A stretch of DNA of 47,516 nucleotides. Source: an uncultured Oscillospiraceae bacterium (GTDB lineage: Bacteria > Bacillota > Clostridia > Oscillospirales > Oscillospiraceae). The notes beneath the pieces are model-generated. The model was not told the DNA's origin, ran no database searches, and was given only the letters and a program-made list of their open reading frames with translations. Made by a program: the position numbers and the translations under genes. Below are positions 2,507 to 20,655 of this stretch, one piece after another (position 1 is the stretch's first letter; every line of letters begins with the position of its first letter). The DNA is taken from the NCBI GenBank assembly GCA_934670025.1, contig CAKUOS010000009.1, forward strand, positions 1 through 47,516. Direction: 5' to 3'.

Positions 2507-2575
2507 CCCAATCTTTTCCCACGCACGGGAAAAGATTGGGCCGTCGGAGACATCGGCGCATCATTTCACCCCGGC
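2507..2575. repeat. 14-bp perfect hairpin with a block shared with 17548-17576
   Basis: CCCAATCTTTTCCC, loop ACGCAC, then the exact complement (2507-2540). The right part, CACGGGAAAAGA followed by TGGCCGTCGGAG with small changes, is repeated at 17548-17574, so this is a second dispersed repeat type. The last bases overlap the end of the DHHW gene. There is no T run on either side, so a simple intrinsic terminator is unlikely. Confidence 0.6.
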
Positions 2576-4021
2576 CAGGGCGTTGAGATAGCGCACATAC
2601 GCCTTGCTGTTGATCATATAGGGGTAATTGATGACGATCAGATCGTCGACGCCCTCGTTTTCGGCCAGCGCGGCCAGATCCAGAGACGGCTTGCCGTCCT
2701 GATTGAACTCGCGCGGGTCGACGACGATGATGCGCCCGTAATGGCTCGTGAGGAACGGCACGAAAGCGTTGCCGTAGGACTCCTTGAGCACGATGCACGT
2801 CGGCCCCTGCACGTCGCTTTCCACGATGCAGATGGGCGTGTCGCCGCCGATGAAGCAGAGGTATTTATTCGTCACGGCCTCGTCCAGCTGCGTATACACG
2901 ACGCTCACCGGCGTGCCGTTTTCGAGCGTCCCGTCGGCATAATACCGCGCGTGCGTGTCCTTGATGGGCAGATAGTAGTCGAGATAGTCGGGATTCTGCT
3001 TCAGAACGTCGCTCTGCGGATAGCCCTTCGTGAAGGTGTACATGGAGCCGAGGAACGTGTCGTACCGGCCGGTCTGGAAGTCCTCCAGCGGCACGGCCTC
3101 GAAGCCCGCGGCCTCGCAGAACGCCGTGTAGGCGTAGTACGCGCCGAGCTGCGTCCAGTGGTGGTCGGTGCGGAAGTAGATATACTCGTCGGTGTGGCTG
3201 CGGAGCTTTGCATAGGCGTCGACGGTCACGACGCCGTCGGGCATCCGGCTGTAGCAGAAGTCGATCATATCCTTCTGGCTGTGTTCGCCGGTGTGCAGGC
3301 TCTCGGGCGAGTAAAATTCGCCGCCGTTCGGCGTGACGATCGAGATCGTGCGCACGTCCGGGCCGAGCGCGCTCTGGAGATTCGCAACGGCCCCGGCGTA
3401 GCTCGTGATGATATCGTCGAGCCGCGTGGGGATCTCCATCGCGCGGTCGCCGACGACCACGACCGAGCCCGCGTAGCTGGCGTCGGATTCGTCAGGCGTG
3501 TCGAGCGCGGGATCGGCCTCCGGTTCGGGCTGCGTCTCAGGCGGCTGCGGCGCCTCTGCGGGCGGCTCCTGCGCGGCAGGGTCCGTAGATCCGGCAGGTT
3601 CGGACGGCGCATCCGCGGGCGTTTCGGCGGGCTCGGACGGCGTCCCGGGCTGCGCAGCGCCGTTCAGCTCATCGAGTGCCTTCTGCACGTTGTCGAGCCG
3701 CTCGCCGCCGTGCGCGGCTTCGTCGGTCTGGCCGACGATCAGAACATTGTCCTCGCCGAAACCGGAGAAGGAATAGAGCTGATTGAGCGCGCGGTTCGCT
3801 TGCAGAAGCGTCTGCCGCGCCGGGAACGTATCGGAATAATACTGCTCAAGCGCCGGGATATACGTTCCGTCCAGCAGCGTCTGAACGGAAAATTCCGGTT
3901 TTTTGAACGTCTTTTTTTCATCCACAGAGACGGTCTGATCCACGTCGGCGAGCGAATACACGCCGACAAACAGCAGCGCGGCCAGCAGGACGAGCAGCAG
4001 TGCGGTATAGAGCTTTTTCAT
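2561..4021 (-). CDS. DHHW-family protein (AlgJ/AlgX-like O-acetylation partner)
   Basis: 486 aa. An N-terminal membrane segment (about residues 5-25, rich in Leu/Ala/Val) suggests an anchored or exported protein. The signature DHHW is at residues 286-289 within YFRTDHHWTQLGAYYAY. Family knowledge: these SGNH-like proteins work with an MBOAT protein to O-acetylate an exported polysaccharide or wall polymer. The MBOAT gene lies immediately upstream, 12 bases away on the same strand, which supports that role. Residues about 121-180 form a low-complexity Pro/Glu/Ala linker between the anchor-proximal part and the catalytic region. The ATG at 4021 is preceded by a GGAGG-like site. The polymer modified cannot be told from the sequence. 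Confidence 0.88.
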   Translation of the reverse strand: MKKLYTALLLVLLAALLFVGVYSLADVDQTVSVDEKKTFKKPEFSVQTLLDGTYIPALEQYYSDTFPARQTLLQANRALNQLYSFSGFGEDNVLIVGQTDEAAHGGERLDNVQKALDELNGAAQPGTPSEPAETPADAPSEPAGSTDPAAQEPPAEAPQPPETQPEPEADPALDTPDESDASYAGSVVVVGDRAMEIPTRLDDIITSYAGAVANLQSALGPDVRTISIVTPNGGEFYSPESLHTGEHSQKDMIDFCYSRMPDGVVTVDAYAKLRSHTDEYIYFRTDHHWTQLGAYYAYTAFCEAAGFEAVPLEDFQTGRYDTFLGSMYTFTKGYPQSDVLKQNPDYLDYYLPIKDTHARYYADGTLENGTPVSVVYTQLDEAVTNKYLCFIGGDTPICIVESDVQGPTCIVLKESYGNAFVPFLTSHYGRIIVVDPREFNQDGKPSLDLAALAENEGVDDLIVINYPYMINSKAYVRYLNALAGVK

Positions 4022-4033
4022 CGTCCCGCCTCC

Positions 4034-5440
4034 TTAATACCGGAAATAGATGAATGCGTTGTACGTCGAGCCGACGAGCGCGACGGTCGACAGTGCGAGC
4101 AGCGCCGCGTCGAACACGAACGTGACGAGCGCATAGACGATCTGCCCGGACGTCTTGCCGTTCTGCGCGCACATACCGCCGAAGAGGTTGCCGAGATTCC
4201 GCGGGATCGACGTTGCGCCGACCACGCACACGAGCAGCAGCGGCAGACTGTTCGTCAGCTGGATGCGCGTCTGCGCGTTGAACAGGCCCGCGCCCGAAAG
4301 GCCGAACAGCACGCGGAAATTCTCCGTCAGGCGCGAAAGATCGGTAAAATAGAAGATGTTCCAGCCCAGGATCACGAGCAGCATCGTGACCAGCTGCCGC
4401 ACGGGCGCGGGAATTTTGCGCGTGCGCGCGCCGAGCGCCTTTTCGATGACGAGCAGTACGAAGAAATACACGCCCCAGAGGATGAAATTCCAGCTTGCGC
4501 CGTGCCACAGGCCCGTCAGGAACCAGACGACGGCCATGTTGAGGATCTGATGCTTTTTCTTGCCGCCCAGCGGGATATAGACATAATCGCGGAAGAACGA
4601 GCCGAGCGAAATATGCCAGCGCCGCCAGAAGTCCGTGATCGACCGCGCGGTATACGGCAGGCGGAAGTTCTCCATGTACTTGAAACCGAAGATGCGGCCC
4701 ATGCCGATGGCCATATCGGAATACCCGGAGAAGTCGAAGTAGATCTCATACGTGTACAGAAGCAGGCCCAGCCACGCGGCCGCCGTCGTATTGGCGCTCA
4801 GCACCCCGCCGAGCAGCTGCTCGGCGACCTTGCCGGCCGCGTCGGCGAGCAGGACCTTCTTCGCAAGGCCGATCGAAAAGCGCGTCGCGCCGTAGAATGC
4901 GTCGGTGGGGCTGTAGGTGCGGCTGCCGAGCTGCTTTTCCACGTCCGCATAGCGGACGATGGGCCCTGCGATGAGCTGCGGAAAGAGCGAGATATAGAGC
5001 AGAAATCTTGCAAACGACCGCTGCGCGGGCACATCGCCGCGCCAGACGTCGACCGTGTACGACAGCGCCTGGAACGTATAGAACGAGATGCCGATGGGCA
5101 GCGTGATCTGCGGCGCGGCCAGCGCCGTGCCAAGCAGCGCGTTCACATTCTCCACAAAGAAGCCCGCGTATTTGAACACTGCCAGACAGCCGAGATCCAG
5201 CGCCAGCGCCGTGACGAGCCAGCACGTTTTATGCCATTTTGCAAGCACAAGCCCAAATCCCCAGTTGACCGCGGCCATCGCCAGCAGCAAAAACAGGTAT
5301 ACCGGCTCGCCCCAGGCGTAGAAGAACAGGCTGAAGACGAGCAGCACGGCGTTTTTCGCCCGAATGCCCGGACAGAGGAAATACACGGCCATGCAGACCG
5401 GCAGAAACAGATATAAAAAGATCAGATTGGAAAATACCAT
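4034..5440 (-). CDS. MBOAT family O-acyltransferase (AlgI/DltB-like)
   Basis: 468 aa polytopic membrane protein with many hydrophobic segments. The MBOAT core is clear: WRRWHISLGSFFRDYVYIPL in the middle, then FLTGLWHGASWNFILWG, which holds the presumed catalytic His. The family moves acyl groups, usually acetyl, across the membrane onto a polymer; the next gene, a DHHW protein, is the usual partner. Length fits the AlgI group. A promoter (TTGCAA, 17 bp, TACAGT on the minus strand) lies 5488-5516, so the two genes probably form one operon divergent from the DeoR gene. Substrate specificity is unknown; alginate itself is not implied. Confidence 0.93.
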   Translation of the reverse strand: MVFSNLIFLYLFLPVCMAVYFLCPGIRAKNAVLLVFSLFFYAWGEPVYLFLLLAMAAVNWGFGLVLAKWHKTCWLVTALALDLGCLAVFKYAGFFVENVNALLGTALAAPQITLPIGISFYTFQALSYTVDVWRGDVPAQRSFARFLLYISLFPQLIAGPIVRYADVEKQLGSRTYSPTDAFYGATRFSIGLAKKVLLADAAGKVAEQLLGGVLSANTTAAAWLGLLLYTYEIYFDFSGYSDMAIGMGRIFGFKYMENFRLPYTARSITDFWRRWHISLGSFFRDYVYIPLGGKKKHQILNMAVVWFLTGLWHGASWNFILWGVYFFVLLVIEKALGARTRKIPAPVRQLVTMLLVILGWNIFYFTDLSRLTENFRVLFGLSGAGLFNAQTRIQLTNSLPLLLVCVVGATSIPRNLGNLFGGMCAQNGKTSGQIVYALVTFVFDAALLALSTVALVGSTYNAFIYFRY

Positions 5441-6800: not shown

Positions 6801-8672
6801 TTACGCTTCGAGCGCTCTGGGGAAGGCCACAATGGCCTTGAACAGATCGCCGTCGACCTCGATATGGAACGCGCCGCCCTGCAATTCGGTCAGGCTCTGC
6901 GCGATGGAAAGGCCAAGGCCGCTGCCCTCGGTGTGGCGCGAGCGGTCGCCGCGCACAAAGCGCGCCATCAGCTCCTCGGCAGGGATATCGAGCTCGTACT
7001 TCGAGATGTTCTTGAACGTCAGCGTGACGGTCTTTTCGTCCGACGCGCTCTCAAAATAGACTCTCGTGCCGGGCATGGCGTATTTGCAGATGTTGGAGAA
7101 GAGATTCCCCAGCACGCGGGACAGCAGCTGCCCGTCGGCCTCGATCTGCGGCTGTGCGGGGTCTGGCTTGAAAACCGCGTCGAGCTGCGCCGCGGTCAGC
7201 TTGTCGGCGTATTCGCCCGCCAGCTGGCTCAGAAGCACGTTCACGTCCGTCCGCGCCAGATGCACGGGCATACTGCCCGACGACGCCTTCGACGCTTCCA
7301 TCAGGTCCTCGGTCAGCTTTTTGAGGCGTGCGGACTGGCGGCTGAGCACCGCGACGTATTCCTTCGCCTGTTCGGGCTGCACGTCCTCCTTTTCAAGCAG
7401 GTCGACGTAGTTGACGATGGACGTGAGCGGCGTTTTGATATCGTGCGAAACATTCGTGATGAGCTCCGTTTTCATGCGCTCGGCGCGCGTCTGCTCGGCC
7501 ACGGCCTTTTCAATGCCCGTGCGGATGCTTTGCAGATTCTCTGCGTGCCCTTTTAAGTCCGGGAGCCAGCGCGGGATGGGCTTGCCGGTGTAGCTCAGGT
7601 TGCCGCTGGCGATGGCCTTCCCCTGCTGCTGCAAAATTTTCAGGCTCGACGCGAGGTAGAGAATCGCAACCGTCAGAATCCCGCGCGACACGAGCCACCA
7701 GAACGCCGCCGCGGCGCTGCCGTTGAACGTGAAGAGCAGATCGACGAAGCAGAAGCCCGTCCAGATGAGCATCGTCCGCCAGACCATCGGGATGCGCCCA
7801 AGTCCCCGGAAAATCCACGCGAAAACGATATAGATGAGCGAGTTTTTGAAGGGGCTTGGCGCCTTGACGCGGCCCGCGAAGCTCAGAACGAACACCAGCA
7901 GCAGCACCGCGATGCCCGCAGCGAGCAGAATATACCACCAGAAGTCCAGCCCGAGACCGTATTGCATTTCCGACATCAGCCCGACCCAGCCCACGCCGAG
8001 CAGGAGAAGCAGACAGACGGCAAGATCGAGCGGCACGCGGTTGAACCAGTAGAGGTACACGCCGTCCACACCCTCCTTGTGCCCCATCGCGCACAGCAGG
8101 AAGATAAACAGGAACAGGCACACCGCGAGGCAGAACACGGCCAGCACAATCAGCCACACGCGCGCGGCGATGAACCGGTCGACCCATTTGAGCGCGTTGT
8201 ATACGCGGTCGTGCGCGGAAAGCGGGTCGCGCAGATACACGTACAGCTCATACGTCACGTCGTCGCCGTCAAAGGACATTCTGGAACAAATCCTGCGTGT
8301 GCTGTAATGGCTGTCTGCGAACGAAGCCGCATCGGCCTCGCCGACCTGAACGAGCGATTCGCCGGTGGCTTCATTGACCCACTCAAAATACACATTGGAC
8401 TTGTCTGCGGTATAGCGCTCCTGCATGATCTCCAGCTCCTGCGGCTGACCGGTCCGGTATGCCGTCAGCGCTTCCTGTGCGTCCGAAAAACACGCATTGC
8501 TCATGGCAGCGTTCGTACGCTCCTGCCGCAGCTGCGCGCCGCCGTCCTCATAGACCTGCTCCTGCGCCAGATACGCAATGCCGAGCGCCGACGCGGCCAG
8601 CAGCGCGGCAAACACGATCAAAAGCGCGACAGCCGTACATTTGACCCAGAGCTTTCCCTGTAACTGTTTCAT
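6801..8672 (-). CDS. Membrane sensor histidine kinase
   Basis: 623 aa. One N-terminal membrane segment (about 10-36) is followed by an extracytoplasmic stretch (about 37-165). A block of about five further membrane segments spans 170-345, unusual compared with the simple two-segment sensors. The HisKA box NVSHDIKTPLTSIVNY places the phosphorylated His at residue 410. The ATPase domain has NLFSNICKYA and the G box GSGLGLSIAQ. It is co-transcribed with the OmpR-type regulator just upstream (ATGA overlap at 8669-8672). The signal sensed is unknown; the multi-span region could bind a lipid-soluble or envelope ligand. Confidence 0.94.
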   Translation of the reverse strand: MKQLQGKLWVKCTAVALLIVFAALLAASALGIAYLAQEQVYEDGGAQLRQERTNAAMSNACFSDAQEALTAYRTGQPQELEIMQERYTADKSNVYFEWVNEATGESLVQVGEADAASFADSHYSTRRICSRMSFDGDDVTYELYVYLRDPLSAHDRVYNALKWVDRFIAARVWLIVLAVFCLAVCLFLFIFLLCAMGHKEGVDGVYLYWFNRVPLDLAVCLLLLLGVGWVGLMSEMQYGLGLDFWWYILLAAGIAVLLLVFVLSFAGRVKAPSPFKNSLIYIVFAWIFRGLGRIPMVWRTMLIWTGFCFVDLLFTFNGSAAAAFWWLVSRGILTVAILYLASSLKILQQQGKAIASGNLSYTGKPIPRWLPDLKGHAENLQSIRTGIEKAVAEQTRAERMKTELITNVSHDIKTPLTSIVNYVDLLEKEDVQPEQAKEYVAVLSRQSARLKKLTEDLMEASKASSGSMPVHLARTDVNVLLSQLAGEYADKLTAAQLDAVFKPDPAQPQIEADGQLLSRVLGNLFSNICKYAMPGTRVYFESASDEKTVTLTFKNISKYELDIPAEELMARFVRGDRSRHTEGSGLGLSIAQSLTELQGGAFHIEVDGDLFKAIVAFPRALEA

Positions 8673-9364
8673 AGCTTCCCTCCTTCGAGCTTATAGCCCT
8701 TGCCCCAGACGACCTTCAGATAGCGCGGGTTCGACGGGTCGATCTCCAGCTTTTCGCGCAGATGGCGGATGTGGACGGCCATCGTGTTGTCGCTGCCCAT
8801 GGGCGCTTCGTTCCACACGGCGGCGTAGATCTCGCCGGGCGTGAAGACCTTGCCGGGATTGCGCATGAGAAAGTAGAGAATGTCATACTCCTTCGGCGTC
8901 AGCGCGACCGGCTGGCCGTCGAGTGTGACGCGCTTGGCGTCGTGATCGAGCTCGATGCCGCCGGCCGTGAGCACCGACGGCGCTTTGACGGCCGCGCCGA
9001 GCTGCAAAAACCGCCGCAGCTGCGATTTGACGCGCGCGAGCACCTCGACCGGGTTAAAGGGCTTCGTGATGTAGTCGTCCGCGCCGACGCTCAGGCCCAG
9101 AATTTTGTCCGAATCCTCGGATTTGGCCGTGAGCAGGATGACGGGGATGTTGGAAAACTCGCGCAGCTTGGCCATCGTGGTGATGCCGTCCATGCCGGGC
9201 ATCATGATGTCGAGCAGCGCCAGCTGTACCTGTCCGCCGCGCGCGATCTGCAAGGCTTCTGCGCCGTTCGACGCGGTATGGACGCAGTAGCCGTCCGATT
9301 CGAGATAAATTTTTAACGCCGCGACGATATCGGCCTCATCGTCGCAGACCAGAATGTGATGCAT
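8669..9364 (-). CDS. OmpR/PhoB-family response regulator
   Basis: 231 aa. In the receiver domain the acidic pair is at residues 8-9, the phospho-acceptor is D52 in LLDIMMPGMDG, and the conserved Lys is K99 in YITKPFNP. The C-terminal winged helix has VALTPKEYDILYFLMRNPGKV and MAVHIRHLREKLE, resembling VanR-type regulators. RBS GGAGGAAGG precedes the ATG. It is the first gene of the leftward operon and overlaps the kinase start by four bases. The promoter at 9412-9440 is divergent from that of the flavoprotein gene, which makes that gene a possible target (inference). Confidence 0.96.
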   Translation of the reverse strand: MHHILVCDDEADIVAALKIYLESDGYCVHTASNGAEALQIARGGQVQLALLDIMMPGMDGITTMAKLREFSNIPVILLTAKSEDSDKILGLSVGADDYITKPFNPVEVLARVKSQLRRFLQLGAAVKAPSVLTAGGIELDHDAKRVTLDGQPVALTPKEYDILYFLMRNPGKVFTPGEIYAAVWNEAPMGSDNTMAVHIRHLREKLEIDPSNPRYLKVVWGKGYKLEGGKL

Positions 9365-11083: not shown

Positions 11084-12664
11084 TTATTTCTGCTCCAGCA
11101 CGGCTGCGTTCGTGGTCAGAAGCGCGCCGGCTGTCTCCGCGGCGGTGGTGAGGATGGCCTCGGCCGTCGCGCGCGGCGTGAGGATCCCGGCCTCGCGCAG
11201 GTCGACCATCCGGTGCTGCACCACGTCGTAGCCCTGCCAGGCGCTCTTTGCGCTGTCGAGCTTCGCCAGCACGGCGCTGCCGTCGTCCCCGGCGTTCTCC
11301 GCCAGTCTGCCCGCCAGCGTCCGCAGCGCGTCCGCAAAGCACCGCATCCCGGCCCGCTCCGCCTCGCGCAGGCCGCTTCCCTCTGCGCGCAGACGCTTCG
11401 CCAGACGCACATATGCGCTGCCCGCGCCCGGCACAAGGCCCGACCGTGCGGCGCTTTGCAGCGCCCGGACGGTGTTTTCGTAGAGGTATTTCTTCTCGAA
11501 CATCTCGTATTCCGTCACGCCGCCGGCCAGGATCTCCGCCGTCCTGCCGTTGAGGATCGAAAGCGTGATCTGGAGCTTCTCCCGCTCGTCCTGACTCGTC
11601 TCCTGATCCAGACGGCCCAGCGTGTGCCGCCGCAGGATCTGCGTCATCTCCTCGGAGCTGTGCTCAAAGCCGTACAGGATCGTCGCGTCCTTGTCGATCT
11701 CGGCCCGCGCGACCTGCGCGCAGACCTCCAGCCCGCAGTCGGCGATGTTGTGGCCGCTGTTTTCGTCGAACAGCAGTGAACCCGTCTTCGCCGCAAGCGC
11801 GAGCATATTGCGCCGCCGCGTATCGCCGAAGCCCGGCGCTTTGGCGACGGCGACCCGAAGCCCGGCGCGGGCCTTGTTGACGAGCAGCGCGCGCCGGACC
11901 TCTTCCGTCATGTCGTTTGTGATGATGAGCAGCTCACCCGAGGCGCGCATCGTCTGCTCCAGCATCCGTCGGATCTGCGCCAGGGAGTTGATCTTGATGT
12001 TGCTGAGCAGCACATACGGATGCGTCAGCACCGCGCGGCGGCGCTCGGAGTCGGTCATGAAGCACGTGTTCAGCAGACCGTATTCATACCGCACGCCGTC
12101 CCAGATGTTGACGGCCGTATCGCGCGACTGCGTATCCTCCACCGTGATGACGCCCTCCGCGCCGACCGCCGCGAACGCCTTGAGGGAATTTTCCGCGACC
12201 TCGTCGTTTTTCGCGCACGCGGCGGCGAATTTTTCCGCCGGGACAGTCTCGAACGGCACGGTAAGCGCGTCCAGCTCCGCCCGCAGAACGGGCAGTGCCT
12301 TTTGCAGACCGCTGCGCAGCTCCATCGGGTTATATCCCGCGGCGACGAGGCGGCTGCCTGCGCGCAGAAGCTCGGCCGTCAGCAGCGTCGTGGTGATCGA
12401 GCCGTCGCCGCACGTCGCGGCGACCTTCAGCGCGGCCTCGCGGATGAGCACCGCCGCAAGATCCTCGCCCGCGTCCGGCAGCGACATCTCCTGCAAAATG
12501 CGCCGGCCCGTGTTCGCCACGAGCGGCAGATCGTATTTCTGGTCGCGGATGGTGTTGCGGCCCTCGGGGCCGAAATTGGACGCGACCGTGCCGCACACGG
12601 CGGCGGAGCCCGCCGCCAGCGCCTCGCGCAGCTGCGGGTCAAACATCAGTTTCTTTCCGGACAT
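11084..12664 (-). CDS. Divergent GroEL/Cpn60-like chaperonin of a corrinoid locus
   Basis: 526 aa, nearly GroEL length and co-linear with it. Landmarks align without gaps at the start: GPEGRN at 32-37 (GroEL GPKGRN) and GDGSITTT at 86-93 (GroEL GDGTTTAT, keeping D87). Later come KAPGFGD at 275-281 (apical domain), DEREKLQ, and VPGAG near 411-415. By eye, three aspartates of the GroEL nucleotide site are changed: D52 to T52 (VANTGRR), D398 to N397 (YENTVRAL) and D495 to T (GILTPRA). K34 and K51 are also replaced. In GroEL, D52 and D398 drive ATP hydrolysis, so this protein may bind but hydrolyse poorly. The Gly-Met tail is absent and no groES is nearby. It is the last gene of a LysR-corrinoid-chaperonin unit, 27 bases after the corrinoid gene, with RBS GGAGA. 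Proposed client: corrinoid proteins (inference). Confidence 0.85.
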   Translation of the reverse strand: MSGKKLMFDPQLREALAAGSAAVCGTVASNFGPEGRNTIRDQKYDLPLVANTGRRILQEMSLPDAGEDLAAVLIREAALKVAATCGDGSITTTLLTAELLRAGSRLVAAGYNPMELRSGLQKALPVLRAELDALTVPFETVPAEKFAAACAKNDEVAENSLKAFAAVGAEGVITVEDTQSRDTAVNIWDGVRYEYGLLNTCFMTDSERRRAVLTHPYVLLSNIKINSLAQIRRMLEQTMRASGELLIITNDMTEEVRRALLVNKARAGLRVAVAKAPGFGDTRRRNMLALAAKTGSLLFDENSGHNIADCGLEVCAQVARAEIDKDATILYGFEHSSEEMTQILRRHTLGRLDQETSQDEREKLQITLSILNGRTAEILAGGVTEYEMFEKKYLYENTVRALQSAARSGLVPGAGSAYVRLAKRLRAEGSGLREAERAGMRCFADALRTLAGRLAENAGDDGSAVLAKLDSAKSAWQGYDVVQHRMVDLREAGILTPRATAEAILTTAAETAGALLTTNAAVLEQK

Positions 12665-12691
12665 GGTATCGTCTCCTGTCTGTGTGCCGCC

Positions 12692-13348
12692 TTATGCTTC
12701 GGACGGCGCGGTATCGTTTTTCTCTTTTGCCGCGAGGAAGATCGCGGCGGTATCCTCGGGCGTCTTGCCGTAGGCGTCGGCGCCGATCTTTTTTGCCACA
12801 ATATCGTTGACGCACGCGCCGCCGATGACGATCGTCACCCGTTCGCGCAGACCCGCGCCCCGAAACGCCTGCACCGTGCGCTCCATCGCGCTCAGCGCCG
12901 ACGTCAGGACCGCCGACAGCGCGACGAAGCGCGCGCCCTCTTCGATGGTCCGCCTCAAAATCACCGCCGGCGAGACGTTGACGCCCAGATCAACGACCCG
13001 GAAGTGCTTGGCCTCGAGCGTGACCTTGACGATGCTCTTGCCGATATCGTGCAGATCGCCCTCGACCGTGGCGAGAATGACCTTCTCTCCGTCCGGGCGG
13101 CTGACGTCGAAGACCGGCTTGACCAGCTCGATGGCCTCCATGAAGATCTCACCCGCAAAGATGAGGTCGCCGACGAAGTATTCAAACGTATCAAATTTTT
13201 CCCCGATGATATCCATGCCCGCCGAGAGCGCGTCGAGCGCCTGCTGGGCGTGTTCGGGCTCGTTTTTTACAAGTTCGCGGACGGCGCGGAGGACCTTTTC
13301 CTCGCTGAGCGCGCCCATATCCGCAGTCAATGCCGCAAAATCCGTCAA
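12692..13348 (-). CDS. Corrinoid (B12-binding) methyl-carrier protein 1
   Basis: 218 aa from a TTG at 13348, which has AAAGGA eight bases upstream and gives the normal family N-terminus (DFAALTADMGAL). An alternative GTG at 13375 overlaps the LysR stop as GTGA but lacks an RBS. The N-terminal helical cap domain is followed by the Rossmann B12 domain with GDLHDIG. H100 there is the lower axial cobalt ligand, and SAVLTSAL and VIGGA contact the nucleotide tail. It belongs to the MttC/MtgC/MtaC group that carries a methyl group between two methyltransferases. It is a paralogue of the protein at 15333-15971 on the other side of the divergent promoter. Confidence 0.92.
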   Translation of the reverse strand: MTDFAALTADMGALSEEKVLRAVRELVKNEPEHAQQALDALSAGMDIIGEKFDTFEYFVGDLIFAGEIFMEAIELVKPVFDVSRPDGEKVILATVEGDLHDIGKSIVKVTLEAKHFRVVDLGVNVSPAVILRRTIEEGARFVALSAVLTSALSAMERTVQAFRGAGLRERVTIVIGGACVNDIVAKKIGADAYGKTPEDTAAIFLAAKEKNDTAPSEA

Positions 13349-13371
13349 TCCTGTTGTCCTTTCCCGCTCCG

Positions 13372-14253
13372 TCACTGCAAAAACGACATCCGCACGCAGT
13401 TCAGGAAGATCTCGAGCCGTTCTTCATTCTTTTCAAAATACCACAGATAGAGCATCCGCCTGGCGCTGTTTCCCGTCACCTTGGCGATCTCACAGCGGCG
13501 CTTGCGCGCCTTGATCATGTTGTGCGTGACGAACGACGCCGACGTGTCGAAGCACAGCGGGACGTTGCCCATATAGCTGCCCCAGTAATACGTCCACGTC
13601 TGGCTGTCGACCGACCACGGCAGATTCAGCTTCACGTGGTTGGCCGCGGCGATCTCGTCGAGCCAGAAGTTCGTGTTCAGGCGCATGATGGGATAGTCCG
13701 CAAGCTCCGTGATGTCGACCGTCGAGCGGCCGCACAGCTCGTGCCCGTGCGGGATCATGAGCAGCAGCTGCTCGCTCAGGATCGGGATGCGCTTGAGCCC
13801 GACCTTGGGATCGACCTGCAAATACGTATCGTCGGCGATGGCGACGTCCGCGTCACCGGAAAAAAGCGCCTCGGCGATGGCCGCGTTCGGCACGAGCTTC
13901 AGATTGAGCGCGCGCGTATCGTACTGGAAGTAATTTTTCATGATGAACGAAAAATAATTTCCGATCGAATACAGCGTCAGGCTCTCGGCGGCCTCCTCCT
14001 TTTCCGTGAAGCGCGTGCGGATCTGCGAAAAGATCGCATCGATCTGATTGGCATATTCCAGAAGCGCCTTGCCGTCGCTGTTGAGATAGAGCCGGCCGCC
14101 GACGCGGTTGAACAGGCTCCTGCCCAGCTCTTTTTCCAGATTTGCAAGGCTTTTGCTCAGCGCGGGCTGCGAAATATGCAGCTCCCGCGCCGCCTGCGTC
14201 AGACTTTCGGCCTCGGCGATGGCTTTGAAGTAGAGTAAATGTGTGCTTTCCAT
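13372..14253 (-). CDS. LysR-family transcriptional regulator of the corrinoid island
   Basis: 293 aa. The N-terminal HTH reads LLYFKAIAEAESLTQAAREL, then HISQPALSKSLANLEKELG, the LysR signature. The effector-binding domain follows, with the usual alternating folds (DADVAIADD, ILSEQLLLMIPHGH). It is divergent from the methyltransferase gene and the first gene of a leftward unit with corrinoid protein 1 and the chaperonin. A palindromic T-N11-A site at 14311-14325 lies at about -66 from the predicted methyltransferase start point, the classical LysR activation position. The ATG has no clear RBS, and the predicted start of transcription is almost at the ATG, so its message may be leaderless. Confidence 0.94.
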   Translation of the reverse strand: MESTHLLYFKAIAEAESLTQAARELHISQPALSKSLANLEKELGRSLFNRVGGRLYLNSDGKALLEYANQIDAIFSQIRTRFTEKEEAAESLTLYSIGNYFSFIMKNYFQYDTRALNLKLVPNAAIAEALFSGDADVAIADDTYLQVDPKVGLKRIPILSEQLLLMIPHGHELCGRSTVDITELADYPIMRLNTNFWLDEIAAANHVKLNLPWSVDSQTWTYYWGSYMGNVPLCFDTSASFVTHNMIKARKRRCEIAKVTGNSARRMLYLWYFEKNEERLEIFLNCVRMSFLQ

Positions 14254-14260
14254 ACTTTAA

Positions 14261-14290
14261 ACTATAACACCGGCAGGGAAGGGGTGTCAA
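14261..14290 (-). promoter_or_regulatory. Candidate promoter of the LysR-corrinoid-chaperonin unit
   Basis: Minus strand TTGACA (14285-14290), 18-bp spacer, TATAGT (14261-14266). The start point would fall within a few bases of the LysR ATG. Confidence 0.6.
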
Positions 14291-14480: not shown

Positions 14481-15290
14481 GTGATTATCATCGGCGAAAA
14501 GATCAACGGCGCGATCCCTTCCATCAAGCAGGCGATCGCGGACCACAACGAGGCTCTCATCATCGAGCGCACGAAGGCGCAGGCAGAGGCCGGCGCAAAC
14601 TTCCTCGACTGCGCGCCGTCGACCGCAACGGAAATTGAATACGAGACCATGTGCTGGCTCATCGATCTCATGCAGGGCGCGACCGACGTTCCCCTCTGCA
14701 TCGACAGCCCGAACGCGCATCTGCTGGCCCGCATTCTGAATGAAGGCCGCGTAAAGAAGCCCGGCATGGTCAACTCCGTCAACGAAGAGGGCGACAAGTG
14801 CGAGACCATCTTCCCGCTGATCGCCGGCTCCGACTGGAACGTACTCGGCCTGACCTGCGACAAGGACGGCATCCCGTACGACAGCCAGAAGAAGATCGAC
14901 ATTGCAAAGCGCATCATCGACAAGGCTGACCACTACGGCGTCGCGCTCAAGAATCTGCACATCGATCCGTGCGTCATGGCGCTCGCTACGCTGCCGAACG
15001 CGCTCGAGGACTTCGTCACCTGCATCAAGGGCATCCATGAATACGCACCGGAAGTCAAGGTCACCGGCGCCATCTCCAACATCTCCTTCAATATGCCCGC
15101 CAGAAAGTACATCAACACCAACTGCATGGCCTACGCGATTGAGGCCGGTCTTGACTCCGCGATCTGCGACCCGTGCAGCGTGGACATGATGTCCACCATC
15201 TACGCCTGCGAAGCGCTCACCATGAAGGACAAGGCAGGCCGCAAGTATAACCGTGCTTACCGCCAGGGGAGAATTGGCGTTAAGAAATAA
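14481..15290 (+). CDS. Methyltetrahydrofolate:corrinoid methyltransferase (MtgA/AcsE-type)
   Basis: 269 aa, pterin-binding TIM-barrel family. The start is GTG, with GGAGG nine bases upstream, and gives the family N-terminus IIIGEKINGAIPSI. Further family motifs are GANFLDCAPS, PLCIDSPNAHLLARIL, GMVNSVNEEGDK, HIDPCVMALAT and GAISNISFNMP. It moves a methyl group between N5-methyl-THF and the Co of a corrinoid protein. In demethylating systems (MtgA) the flow is from methyl-Co to THF, in AcsE the reverse. The next gene is its likely corrinoid partner. No acsCD genes are present, so a demethylation role is more likely (inference). Confidence 0.9.
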   Translation: MIIIGEKINGAIPSIKQAIADHNEALIIERTKAQAEAGANFLDCAPSTATEIEYETMCWLIDLMQGATDVPLCIDSPNAHLLARILNEGRVKKPGMVNSVNEEGDKCETIFPLIAGSDWNVLGLTCDKDGIPYDSQKKIDIAKRIIDKADHYGVALKNLHIDPCVMALATLPNALEDFVTCIKGIHEYAPEVKVTGAISNISFNMPARKYINTNCMAYAIEAGLDSAICDPCSVDMMSTIYACEALTMKDKAGRKYNRAYRQGRIGVKK

Positions 15291-15332: not shown

Positions 15333-15971
15333 ATGTTTGATTTTGAAAAGCTGGCACAGGCCATGGGCGAACTCGACGAAGACGCCGTTAAGGAAATGCT
15401 GAACGAAGTGATGGCCGAGGGCGGCAAGGACGCTGCCGACGCCATGAGCGCCTGCCAGAAGGGCATGGACATCGTCGGCAAGCTGTTTGAGGACGGCGAA
15501 TACTTCGTCGGCGACCTCATCTACGCCGGTGAGCTGATGACCGACGCCGTCGCCATTCTGAAGGACGCGCTGGTCTCCGGCGGCGACGAAGGCGCTGCCA
15601 AGACCAAGATGGTCCTGTGCACCGTCAAGGACGACCTGCACGACATCGGCAAGAACATCGTCCGCGCCATGCTCGAGGCTGCCGGTTTCGACGTCATCGA
15701 CCTGGGCATCGACGTTCCCGCCGACAAGATTGTGGAAGCTGTCAAGGCCAACAACGTCAAGATCGTTGCGCTGTCCGGTGTTCTGACGCTCGCGCTCGAC
15801 TCCATGAAGGCTACCGTTGAGGCGCTCAAGGCCGCGGGTCTTGACGACGTCAAGGTCATCATCGGCGGCGCTCCCGTCTCCGCGGAAGCCTGCACCGCTG
15901 TCGGCGCTGACGAGTGGGCCCACAGCCCGCAGAAGACCGTCCAGACCTGCAAGGCCTGGTCCGTCGCCTGA
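15333..15971 (+). CDS. Corrinoid (B12-binding) methyl-carrier protein 2
   Basis: 212 aa. An N-terminal cap domain (MFDFEKLAQAMGELDEDAVK and following helices) precedes the B12 domain. DLHDIG places the cobalt-ligand His at residue 103, with SGVLTLALDSM and IIGGAPVS as further contacts. It is 42 bases after the methyltransferase with RBS GGGGG, so the two are co-expressed and probably act as a pair. Codon choice is as strongly biased as in nifJ, suggesting high expression, whereas the leftward paralogue is less biased. No substrate-specific methyltransferase (MttB/MtgB, MtaB) or reductive activase (RamA) is in the window. Confidence 0.95.
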   Translation: MFDFEKLAQAMGELDEDAVKEMLNEVMAEGGKDAADAMSACQKGMDIVGKLFEDGEYFVGDLIYAGELMTDAVAILKDALVSGGDEGAAKTKMVLCTVKDDLHDIGKNIVRAMLEAAGFDVIDLGIDVPADKIVEAVKANNVKIVALSGVLTLALDSMKATVEALKAAGLDDVKVIIGGAPVSAEACTAVGADEWAHSPQKTVQTCKAWSVA

Positions 15972-17683: not shown

Positions 17684-20524
17684 TTATTTCGTCAGGAAGC
17701 GGTGGAGCATGACGGCCACCTCGGCGCGCGTCGCATTGTTCTTCGGGTTCAGCTTCGCGCCGCTGCCCTTGACATAGCCGTAACCCACGGCCCAGCTCAT
17801 GGCGCTCTGCGCGTAGGCGCTGATGGAGGTGTAGTCCGTGTAGCTGCGCAGGCTGACGGAGTACGAAGGCTCCTTTGCAAGCCGCCAGAGGATGGAGGCG
17901 ATCTGCTCGCGCGTGATGTTGCCCTTCGGGCTGAAGGTCGTGCTGCCTGTGCCGTTCACAACGCCGTTGCGATAGGCCCAGAGGACAGCCTCGTAGTAGT
18001 AATCCGTGCTCTTCACGTCCGTGAACGGGTTCGACACGCCGTAGACCGACGGAGAACCGGCGTTGCGGTAAAGGATGAGCACAAAGTCGCCGCGCGTCAT
18101 GTTGCCGCCGTAGTTGAAGGTCGAAGTGCTCGTGCCCTTGACAAGGCCGTAGTAATTCATGAAATCGACCGCGTCAGCCGCCCACGAACACGTCCGCGCC
18201 GTGACGTCGGAGAAGACCGCGGAGGCCGTCTTCGTCGCCACGCGGAGCACGACGTCGGTCGTGCCGAGCAGACGGTCGGACGAGGAATAGACGCTCACGG
18301 GGAACTTGATCTGCGAAGCGCAGTCGGCCGCCGGGAGGAAATAGACGTTGTCGACGGTCTTGTTCTTCGAACCGGAGGTCGTGCTGAGGTAGAATTTATC
18401 GCTTGCAAAGTCGATCTTCGTGTAGTTTTCGTTCACGATGCTGCTGAAGTTGTACAGCAGCTGACCTTCACTCGCAAGCGGGCTCTTGAACGTGACATAC
18501 GCGCCGTCGGGGTACGCCATGAGGATCTGCTCGGCCAGCTGGATGGACTTCATGCTTGCGCCGACGGCGGTGAGCGTGTCGTCGCCGCTGACATTCACGG
18601 CCATAAAGCCGTTATACGTGCTGCCGGATGTGCCGGTAGCGGTATACGGGATGTAAACGGTATATTTCGTCGTGTAGGTACCGGCCTGATACGTCACGGC
18701 GTCGAGATCGAGCTGCGAATACGTCGCCTGATAGTAGCACTTGTCGGTGCTCGAGAGCTTCGTCGTGCCGTTCTTCGTGGCATAGGCCCAGCCGAAGATG
18801 GAGGCGTTGCCGCTGTCGTTGAGGTTATAGGTGCGGTTGTTCATGCGGACCGTGGCGTTTTTGAGGTAGAACTGCACGTAATCGAGCGTTTCGTTCGTCT
18901 TGCCCTGACCCTTGAACGCCTTGGCGAAATCGTCCTCGATAAACGTGACGCTGCCGCCGAACGTCGTGGAATACTCCACGTCGACGCTTACGCCGCCGAC
19001 CGTCACGCGGCCCGTGGCGATGACCTTGCCGTTCGCGTCATAGCCCACGTAGGTGAAATACGGCGTGGAAGAGACGCTGCTGTTCGCCTTAAAATACAGG
19101 CTCGAAATGCGGTTCGAGGAGCCTGTGACGTAATACTTCGTCGACGTGCCGACGCGGCTGCTTCCGGAATAGACCGAGCCGCCGGACGTACCGGAAATGG
19201 TGATGGCGTCGAGCCGGTTCGCGTTCTCGCCGGTGACGGCGTTGACGGCAGAGGTGAAATCATCCTCGTCGAACTGCTCTTCGTCGCTGACGGAGAAGCT
19301 GCTTGCCGTCGCCGGGACGATCTTGACGGACGTCTCGGGCGCGGTATACGTCTGGCCGTCGATCGTCGCGGTGACAGTCAGCGTGACGCTCGTGCCGTCA
19401 GCAGAGGAACCGGCCGAGTAGGTGCGCAGTTCCTTGCGGGAGGTGCCGCTGCTCGTCTCGCTCGTGACGGGCTGCGTGGACGTCTCGCCGGCGAACGCGG
19501 CCACATCCGCGGTATACGCCTTCCAGCTGAGCGCGACTTTTCCGGTGTACTGCTGCATGGTTTCGTTCATCGCGTTGTACTGATAGACGCTTGCCGTGAC
19601 ATAGGCTGCGTCGCCCGCGCTGATGGACGTGGGCGCGTCGAGCGCGATGGTGTACAGATCCGCGACCGTCAGGCTGTACGACGCCGTCATGACCTCGATG
19701 CCATTGGCCTTCGCCGTGGCGGTGATCGTGATACGGGAGCCGGCGGCAATGCCGGTCACTTCGCCGGTCGTCGCGTTGACAGACGCCTGATAGCTGTTCT
19801 GACTGGAATAGGTGATGACGTCGGTTGATGTTGCAGAGGTGGCGGTATTGGTCTTCTTTTGCCCCTTTGCAACGGTCATGCTGCTGTGCGCAAAGCGCAG
19901 CTTATGGGACTCGCTGGCCGTGACCGTGACGGCGAAGCTTGCGCTCTTGCCGCCGCAGGCGACGGTGATCGTTGCCGTGCCGAGCTTTTTCGGCGTGATG
20001 GTAACAGTCGCCGTGCCGGTCTGGTTGGAAACCGTCAGTGCGGAAGCGGCTGCCGCGGCGACCGTCTCATCCGAGGACGTGACCATCAGCGTATCGCCGG
20101 TGATCGCGCCCGCGACCGTCGCGGTGAAGCTCACGGGCGAAGCGGGAGAATAGGCATCCGCATCGATCGCAACAGCGCCGTCGGGCGCATTGGTCGTGAC
20201 AGACGAGACCGCCTCTACAACGGTAACTGTGACAGGTGTGCCGACAGGCACATCATCGATCTTTGCGGAAATAACCGTCGTTCCGGTGGTAAGCGCCGTG
20301 ATCACGCCGGTCGTTTCGTTGATGGATGCAACAGCCTTGTTGGAACTGCTGAAAACGGCGACGCCCTCTGCGCCAGCAACCGACGCGGTAGTCGTTTCGC
20401 CAATACGGAGCGTCGATTTGCCCACGCTCAGCACCGGGCCGTCTGCCAGCGCGGCCGGGATCATGGCCGTCAGCATGGCCAGCGCGAGAAGGAAACTGAG
20501 GATCCTGCCTGTTGTTCGTTTCAT
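17684..20524 (-). CDS. Large secreted surface protein with Ig-like repeats and three SLH domains
   Basis: 946 aa from the ATG at 20524 (RBS AGAGG). The signal peptide is MKRTTGRILSFLLALAMLTA ending near ALADG. Residues about 25-330 form tandem bacterial Ig-like (BIG2-type) domains, each with the pattern S-x-N-x-x-V-A-x-I-N-x-x-T-G-x-I-T (e.g. NKAVASINETTGVITALTTG). A middle region (about 330-770) is Ser/Thr/Tyr-rich and beta-like, with no domain I can name. The last 175 or so residues are three SLH domains (FSDVTARTCSWAADAVDFM; NPFTDVKSTDYYYEAVLWAY; YTDYTSISAYAQSAMSWAV) with the usual TRxx motifs, binding the protein to secondary wall polymer. Likely an S-layer-associated or adhesive surface protein; ligand unknown. 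It is monocistronic. Confidence 0.92.
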   Translation of the reverse strand: MKRTTGRILSFLLALAMLTAMIPAALADGPVLSVGKSTLRIGETTTASVAGAEGVAVFSSSNKAVASINETTGVITALTTGTTVISAKIDDVPVGTPVTVTVVEAVSSVTTNAPDGAVAIDADAYSPASPVSFTATVAGAITGDTLMVTSSDETVAAAAASALTVSNQTGTATVTITPKKLGTATITVACGGKSASFAVTVTASESHKLRFAHSSMTVAKGQKKTNTATSATSTDVITYSSQNSYQASVNATTGEVTGIAAGSRITITATAKANGIEVMTASYSLTVADLYTIALDAPTSISAGDAAYVTASVYQYNAMNETMQQYTGKVALSWKAYTADVAAFAGETSTQPVTSETSSGTSRKELRTYSAGSSADGTSVTLTVTATIDGQTYTAPETSVKIVPATASSFSVSDEEQFDEDDFTSAVNAVTGENANRLDAITISGTSGGSVYSGSSRVGTSTKYYVTGSSNRISSLYFKANSSVSSTPYFTYVGYDANGKVIATGRVTVGGVSVDVEYSTTFGGSVTFIEDDFAKAFKGQGKTNETLDYVQFYLKNATVRMNNRTYNLNDSGNASIFGWAYATKNGTTKLSSTDKCYYQATYSQLDLDAVTYQAGTYTTKYTVYIPYTATGTSGSTYNGFMAVNVSGDDTLTAVGASMKSIQLAEQILMAYPDGAYVTFKSPLASEGQLLYNFSSIVNENYTKIDFASDKFYLSTTSGSKNKTVDNVYFLPAADCASQIKFPVSVYSSSDRLLGTTDVVLRVATKTASAVFSDVTARTCSWAADAVDFMNYYGLVKGTSTSTFNYGGNMTRGDFVLILYRNAGSPSVYGVSNPFTDVKSTDYYYEAVLWAYRNGVVNGTGSTTFSPKGNITREQIASILWRLAKEPSYSVSLRSYTDYTSISAYAQSAMSWAVGYGYVKGSGAKLNPKNNATRAEVAVMLHRFLTK

Positions 20525-20655
20525 CTCTTGTACACCTCTTTCTGCGGCGCAATGCCGCATCTTGTTTTGAGTCCAGTTTAGCGTAGAAAATAAAAATTGC
20601 AACACTTTTGTAAATAATTCAGAAATTCTTCATAATTTGATTGGAAGCGGAGGCA

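Follow-up and report, generated by a model that had tools for sequence, protein, structure and literature searches.

Divergent GroEL paralogues, as in the Chlamydiae, and dedicated ones, such as MmoG, are already known. The chlamydial paralogues are reported to differ in the regions for GroES binding and for ATP binding and hydrolysis (PMC1892554), and MmoG and a mycobacterial monooxygenase chaperonin are described as products of GroEL-like genes beside a metalloenzyme whose expression requires them (PMC7994243). For D398A GroEL, normal ATP binding, 3% ATPase activity, and continued protein folding are reported (PMC3326522), as is about 2% ATPase activity with football complexes (PMC5855711), and in a cryo-electron microscopy study the density seen between D52 and D398 is interpreted as the attacking water (PMC10723157). 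Here, we describe a variant of the group I chaperonin Cpn60, the gene under study, encoded in a 47,516-nt stretch of contig CAKUOS010000009.1 from an uncultured Oscillospiraceae bacterium; this full stretch is referred to as the window. To our knowledge, hydrolysis-dead GroEL has been a laboratory construct, and no description of the clade to which this Cpn60 belongs was found in the open-licence literature, judged from titles and the openings of abstracts.

11084..12664, minus strand: variant Cpn60, 526 aa, group I fold, without a Gly-Met tail (open reading frame [ORF], Pfam, structure)

By alignment, the product is a GroEL-derived protein in which the nucleotide site is kept and both the catalytic pair and the GroES/client groove are lost. 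The carboxylates missing from its natural clade are the same ones removed in the laboratory mutants GroEL D398A and D52A/D398A. With confidence slightly above even, we read it as a second, divergent, GroES-independent group I chaperonin that would bind nucleotide, hydrolyze it very slowly or not at all, and serve a dedicated client. Such a variant would form rings of its own, with Mg-nucleotide bound as a structural or switching ligand whose hydrolysis would be very slow or absent; it would make no use of GroES and would offer a small number of dedicated clients, perhaps just one, a long-lived scaffold or chamber, and ordinary GroEL-GroES would meanwhile handle general folding.

Nucleotide site

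Residue numbering follows Escherichia coli K-12 GroEL, fetched by accession and aligned with the window protein and its clade. In this alignment, the window protein has E34 for K34, N51 for K51, T52 for D52, N397 for D398, and T496 for D495, and it keeps D87. Codons read back from the DNA show that aspartates 52, 398, and 495 are substituted, not shifted, which bears out what the sequence-only reading had held for these positions and for D87.

12509..12511, minus strand: codon T52 (E. coli GroEL D52; alignment, codon read)
12404..12406, minus strand: codon D87, retained Mg2+ ligand (alignment, codon read)
11474..11476, minus strand: codon N397 (E. coli GroEL D398; alignment, codon read)
11177..11179, minus strand: codon T496 (E. 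coli GroEL D495; alignment, codon read)

That reading had also listed K34 and K51 as changed. Both are indeed altered, but as evidence K51N proved ordinary: it is not diagnostic because N51 occurs in 28 of 155 GroELs outside the clade and also in the groEL of G001, the genome of the clade member L001, and position 34 is variable within the clade.

Counts for the clade refer to its 34 full-length members, window protein included. D52 is lost in 33 of the 34 (T in 22, S in 9, A in 2, D in 1), D398 in all 34 (N in 33, S in 1), and D495 in 26 (M in 13, T in 11, D in 8, I in 1, S in 1), and D87 is present in 34/34. The 155 GroELs outside the clade, among them the sister sequence P0049, are the best-scoring ones from two homologue searches and not a random sample; positions 52, 87, 398, and 495 are D in every one of them (155/155). 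Chance or misalignment at the Asp positions was ruled out by the alignments and by these clade and outside counts.

The glycines and proline around the site are likewise retained: G32, P33, G53, G86, and G88, along with D87, occur in 34/34 clade members and GxG at 414 to 416 in 33/34, and the window protein has all of them. Over 15 presumed nucleotide-contact positions, the entropy is 0.18 of the mean in the clade and 0.25 in canonical GroELs (34 clade rows versus 23 canonical rows), the lowest among 15 regions compared. Positions 34, 52, 89, 90, 398, and 495 are excluded from this set, which therefore demonstrates conservation of the remainder of the pocket and not of the entire pocket. Loss of D52 and D398 with retention of D87 and the other contacts is, in these alignments, the signature of the clade. 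Natural selection has apparently produced a hydrolysis-site-dead GroEL and maintained it in 34 full-length proteins whose nucleotide site is otherwise conserved, and the variant offers a route to ask what a chaperonin does on nucleotide binding alone, without GroES or cycling.

Given the water density between D52 and D398 and the behavior of D398A, the clade would be expected to bind nucleotide with very slow or no turnover. The specialized slow-cycling or noncycling chaperonin that had been proposed is well supported by sequence, through the clade-wide loss of D52 and D398, the retained D87, and the separate groES-groEL in G001. Alternatively, Asn and Thr might substitute for Asp in an otherwise normal ATPase of lower rate, and Asn at 398 is almost invariant (33/34), which suggests that it was selected and is not random. 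However, the side chains at the gamma-phosphate (52, 90, and 398) are all three replaced together in the window protein, and D398A alone leaves about 3% activity (PMC3326522); we regard a merely slower ATPase as unlikely.

GroES/client groove, stem-loop, and predicted structure

Residues Y199, Y203, F204, L234, L237, L259, V263, and V264 form what we take to be the groove of GroEL for clients and GroES. The window protein has L, C, F, R, L, R, L, and V at these positions, so that F204, L237, and V264 are kept and two residues are now Arg.

12062..12064, minus strand: codon C201 (E. coli Y203, client/GroES groove; alignment, codon read)
11969..11971, minus strand: codon R232 (E. coli L234, client/GroES groove; alignment, codon read)

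Entropy at nine groove/GroES positions rises from 0.41 of the mean in canonical GroELs to 0.97 in the clade, and that of helix I rises from 0.28 to 1.13; in the alignment, the hydrophobic GroES/client groove and the Gly-Met tail are lost clade-wide. Positions are assigned to groove, helix, stem-loop, and nucleotide contacts after GroEL structure work, some of them as named in PMC8440773. Laboratory D398A GroEL retains GroES binding and folding, whereas in the natural clade the groove is missing. With its GroES surface lost as well, the variant would not be simply a stalled GroEL-GroES machine. A holdase, the role first suggested for it, is less likely than had been thought because the hydrophobic capture groove is gone too.

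The stem-loop at positions 34 to 52, presumably an intra-ring contact, is conserved in the clade (entropy at 0.65 of the mean, versus 0.68 in canonical GroELs) but with residues of its own, K42 being replaced by Q in 32/34 and G45 by D in 34/34. This bears on whether the variant could enter mixed rings as a regulatory or structural subunit, its partner being either canonical GroEL or a second variant; chloroplast Cpn60 alpha/beta is a mixed-subunit chaperonin. A separate groEL is present in G001, and P0029 and P0033, clade members from different sub-branches that are 40% identical, come from one source and agree in contig size (7658), so they may be neighbors and perhaps form a mixed ring. The clade's own conserved stem-loop nonetheless fits self-assembly better than mixing, by an argument from sequence only, and we judge mixed rings to be rather improbable.

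An AlphaFold2 (AF2) model of the variant has a predicted local distance difference test score (pLDDT) of 89 and confirms the fold as that of a full-length three-domain Cpn60. The football structure 3WVL, which we take to be the double mutant D52A/D398A, is among the structural matches. The mutant is printed as D52A/D358A in PMC5941174. Among full-length matches, the model is nearest by root mean square deviation to GroES-bound chains; conformation was dropped as evidence, as the control model of P0049, with its catalytic Asp, behaves alike.

Family assignment, phylogeny, and distribution

The variant is like group I GroEL/Cpn60 (TIGR02348, PF00118) in its full-length fold and in a pocket with D87, GDG, and G32/P33, and it is 33 to 37% identical to the canonical GroELs listed. 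It differs from canonical GroEL in lacking D52, D398, the GroES/client groove, the Gly-Met tail, and an adjacent groES. Against the NCBIfam GroEL equivalog TIGR02348, it scores 340.4 bits, short of the cut-off of 582, and it is also below the cut-offs of four other GroEL subfamily models listed. Chlamydial GroEL2 and GroEL3 are comparable as extra GroEL paralogues altered in the GroES-binding and ATP regions, but they differ in family: the variant reaches 81 bits (NF038370) and 153 bits (NF038369) against cut-offs of 600. MmoG and the mycobacterial protein, whose name we take to be MimG, have a client class unlike that of the variant and are likened to it by gene context, not by residues. Kinship with group II chaperonins is distant and lies in the fold (thermosome models give at most 86 bits, versus cut-offs of at least 400).

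The first homologue search listed 37 clade clusters ahead of the first canonical GroELs. Among the 120 rows listed in a profile search, clade members score at least 580 bits (full-length ones at least 678), P0049 scores 518, and the rest score at most 461; the fragments P0026 and P0032 lie outside these rows. Full-length clade proteins are 37 to 98% identical to the window protein. In a tree of 58 rows, with 17 trait columns removed, the clade is monophyletic with support of 100/100, and P0049 is its sister (100/100). Together they sit in a 47-row branch (100/100) with Kyrpidia (Bacillota) and other N51 GroELs. The variant probably arose from a Bacillota-type GroEL. The fewest changes on the tree are one at D398, two at D52, and one at D495. 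The count for D52 involves P0037, which keeps D52 and has S at 398; it is on a long branch with weak placement (86/38).

P0049 keeps D52, D87, D398, and D495, carries Y203S, V263A, V264T, and K390F, and is without the Gly-Met tail, and it is possibly an evolutionary intermediate. Because it has an altered groove and no tail yet intact catalytic Asp residues, the groove change seems, from this one sequence, to have come earlier than the loss of hydrolysis. The clade and P0049 may in this way reveal the order in which the components of a chaperonin are lost.

A duplicate in functional decay would be consistent with the long branches, with the loss of residues invariant in the canonical set, and with the near-identical P0026, which matches residues 1 to 280 only. 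Against such decay stand the 34 full-length predicted proteins, which reach down to 37% identity with conserved nucleotide contacts, and two new, clade-specific, near-invariant motifs, EYEMFE at 386 to 391 and RRRNM at 285 to 289; decay is disfavored and very improbable. P0026 itself, on a 34,047-base contig, is 95% identical to the window Cpn60 over those residues and dissimilar thereafter; either a misassembly or a disrupted gene copy in some close relative might account for it.

The clade is a rare lineage known almost only from metagenomes. Its named members are L001, an Oscillospiraceae metagenome-assembled genome (MAG) from goat rumen, and, by source labels, P0018 (an Oscillospiraceae MAG) and P0036 (a Lachnospiraceae MAG). 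A clade member was found in 1 of 400 genomes of the family (E 1e-100), 1 of 99 near relatives (E 1e-85), 1 of 394 genomes of the order (E 1e-94), and 1 of 391 of the class (query P0036, E 1e-105), and it was always G001; the four samples overlap, each includes G001, and scoring in the family, order, and class samples was limited to three candidates for each genome listed. The other match among the near relatives, G003, is a canonical GroEL with 33% identity. A scan of genome contigs with peptides of the window protein only, which reaches close relatives only, gave one locus from 15 pattern matches. A phage origin was considered and rejected: 19 pattern matches on viral contigs included no relative, and the 198 matching records of a phage collection are all below 60% identity, the ten listed being at 29 to 32%.

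Separate groES-groEL in a relative

G001 is the sole clade relative with a searchable genome. It has a separate groES-groEL, with the variant on a different contig from groES, which supports a role for the variant as a second chaperonin. The separate canonical groEL on which the sequence-only reading had made its interpretation depend was found in this relative. The G001 groEL (L003, G001:C23:67-801) consists of the N-terminal part only, with D52 and D87 present; it extends up to the end of its contig and, in this assembly, contains an internal TAG. In the window, the E. coli GroES query finds no groES (best E = 1.8), in agreement with what had been noted, and the same query detects the groES of G001 at 1.9e-15.

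Gene neighborhood and corrinoid linkage

The variant gene is read on the minus strand from an ATG at 12664 to a stop at 11084, and the plus-strand reading of these coordinates does not yield it. Its product matches Pfam Cpn60_TCP1 at 3.7e-49. Its G+C content by codon position (0.68, 0.47, and 0.87, in a window of 61% G+C) argues for a real gene, and a Shine-Dalgarno-like GGAGA lies ahead of the start. The surrounding features are as follows.

12692..13375, minus strand: corrinoid protein 1, two B12-binding domains, DLHDIGK motif (Pfam, translation)
13372..14253, minus strand: LysR-type regulator, 4-base overlap with corrinoid gene 1 (ORF, domain match)
14261..14290, minus strand: promoter-like TTGACA-18-TATAGT, 11/12, directly before the LysR gene (consensus match only)
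14481..15290, plus strand: methyltetrahydrofolate:corrinoid methyltransferase, divergent operon (PRK07535, 295.8 bits versus cut-off 259)
15333..15971, plus strand: corrinoid protein 2, adjoining the methyltransferase (family search)

Corrinoid protein 1 has both PF02607 and PF02310 above the cut-off and the DxHxxG motif (DLHDIG). It is below every NCBIfam cut-off, and its methyl substrate is therefore left unassigned. Its gene lies upstream of the variant with a gap of 27 bases (12665-12691), exactly the spacing first reported. LysR, corrinoid protein 1, and Cpn60 probably form one operon, with a candidate start at the promoter-like site before LysR (3 such sites were found in the region, versus 1.1 expected). 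On the opposite side, the minus-strand ORFs over the methyltransferase and corrinoid 2 genes have third-position G+C of 0.53 and 0.65, versus 0.84 and 0.84, and so lack the hallmark of real genes there.

This arrangement suggests a chaperonin dedicated to the assembly or cofactor loading of corrinoid methyl-transfer proteins, comparable to MmoG for soluble methane monooxygenase, a reading which we put forward tentatively as possible but doubtful. Beyond the probable operon, two coincidences of contig size point the same way: P0011 (Cpn60) and P0163 (corrinoid-1 relative) have the same source and equal contig size (6415), as do P0022 (Cpn60) and P0151 (corrinoid-1 relative; 8282), with one contig each. 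By chance, 0.2 to 0.3 such coincidences would be expected, and 82 canonical GroELs gave none. By this indirect match, P0011 and P0022 each seem to share a contig with a corrinoid-1 relative. The three Cpn60s concerned fall in separate branches of one 21-row group (100/99) and are pairwise 52 to 60% identical, and the corresponding corrinoid pairs show about 60% identity. Close relatives of the variant and of corrinoid 1 are also both rare among the genomes sampled. The corrinoid-1 query matched 7 of 325 genomes of the family (E 1e-46), none above 46% identity; its result of 0 of 382 genomes of the class (E 1e-50) had no positive control, so that the empty result shows nothing. Six of the seven matches, all but that of G001, fit corrinoid 2 better, and four of these six have a methyltransferase beside them, which indicates that the methyltransferase-corrinoid-2 pair is an ordinary module.

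Other contexts speak against a corrinoid client. A search at E 1e-4 of the whole 34-kb contig of G001 that carries the variant detected no relatives of LysR, the methyltransferase, or either corrinoid protein, and the near neighbors there belong to the tRNA pseudouridine synthase, CorA, class I tRNA synthetase (E and Q), and RNA pseudouridylate synthase families. No Cpn60 was found on the 8.9-kb contig of the distant LysR-corrinoid pair of G001. Contig-size matches to corrinoid-1 relatives are lacking for 26 of the 28 clade clusters that include a contig longer than 4 kb. Contig-size mismatch was mostly dropped as proof of nonlinkage, and such misses must be common, because the window species' own Cpn60 and corrinoid clusters (P0002, 2180; P0123, 6105) do not match even though their genes are side by side in the window; P0026 (34047) mismatches too. 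What is known of genomic context comes from the window, L001/G001, and the contig-size matches.

The sequence-only reading had suggested the B12 protein encoded upstream as a possible client and had named recurrent linkage among homologues as a check. Linkage holds in the window and seems to hold on two other contigs, and it fails in L001/G001. The corrinoid linkage is thus partial and lends weak support to a corrinoid client, and the corrinoid protein is still the best lead that we infer. In the window's operon, the likeliest client would be the corrinoid protein or a methyltransferase working with it, an assignment we offer with less than even confidence. Overall, what had been observed in the sequence is confirmed, and its interpretation is partly supported.

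The distant pair in G001 (L014, G001:C29) has 47% and 41% identity to the window's LysR and corrinoid proteins; genes for an EamA transporter and an MTTB-family methyltransferase lie close to it. The window contains no relative of the MTTB of G001 at E 1e-6.

Assessment of the proposed function

Several points weigh against a GroES-independent, self-assembling chaperonin with a dedicated client. The stem-loop at 36 to 50 has a pLDDT below 50 in the variant model, versus about 81 to 85 in the control, so that ring assembly stays a prediction. The G001 groEL is judged canonical from its N-terminal part, the entropy comparison sets groups of unequal depth side by side, and N397 or T52 might still sustain slow turnover. 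The corrinoid-free surroundings of the G001 variant count here as well. Finally, the window protein passes the NCBIfam model PRK12849, "chaperonin GroEL" (364.4 bits versus a cut-off of 352), so that automatic annotation may label it simply GroEL.

A more specific version of the proposed function, which we think improbable as a whole, is a nucleotide-locked ring that works without GroES and ATP hydrolysis. The nucleotide would then be a permanent structural ligand or a one-way switch, and the ring would be a dedicated chamber for folding a corrinoid protein, loading it with B12, or keeping it in the reduced state.

Other genes in the window

On the minus strand, 6801-9364 encodes a sensor kinase and a response regulator whose best NCBIfam matches are VanS/VanR models, below the curated cut-offs, and 4034-5440 encodes a DltB-like protein (133.6 bits, below the cut-off of 375). 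A 486-aa ORF at 2561-4021, which adjoins the DltB-like gene, has no NCBIfam match. A 973-aa protein with three S-layer homology repeats is encoded at 17684-20605 on the minus strand. At 108-2204 on the plus strand, a 698-aa ORF matches ferredoxin, TPP-binding, and end of POR domains, as in pyruvate:ferredoxin oxidoreductase.
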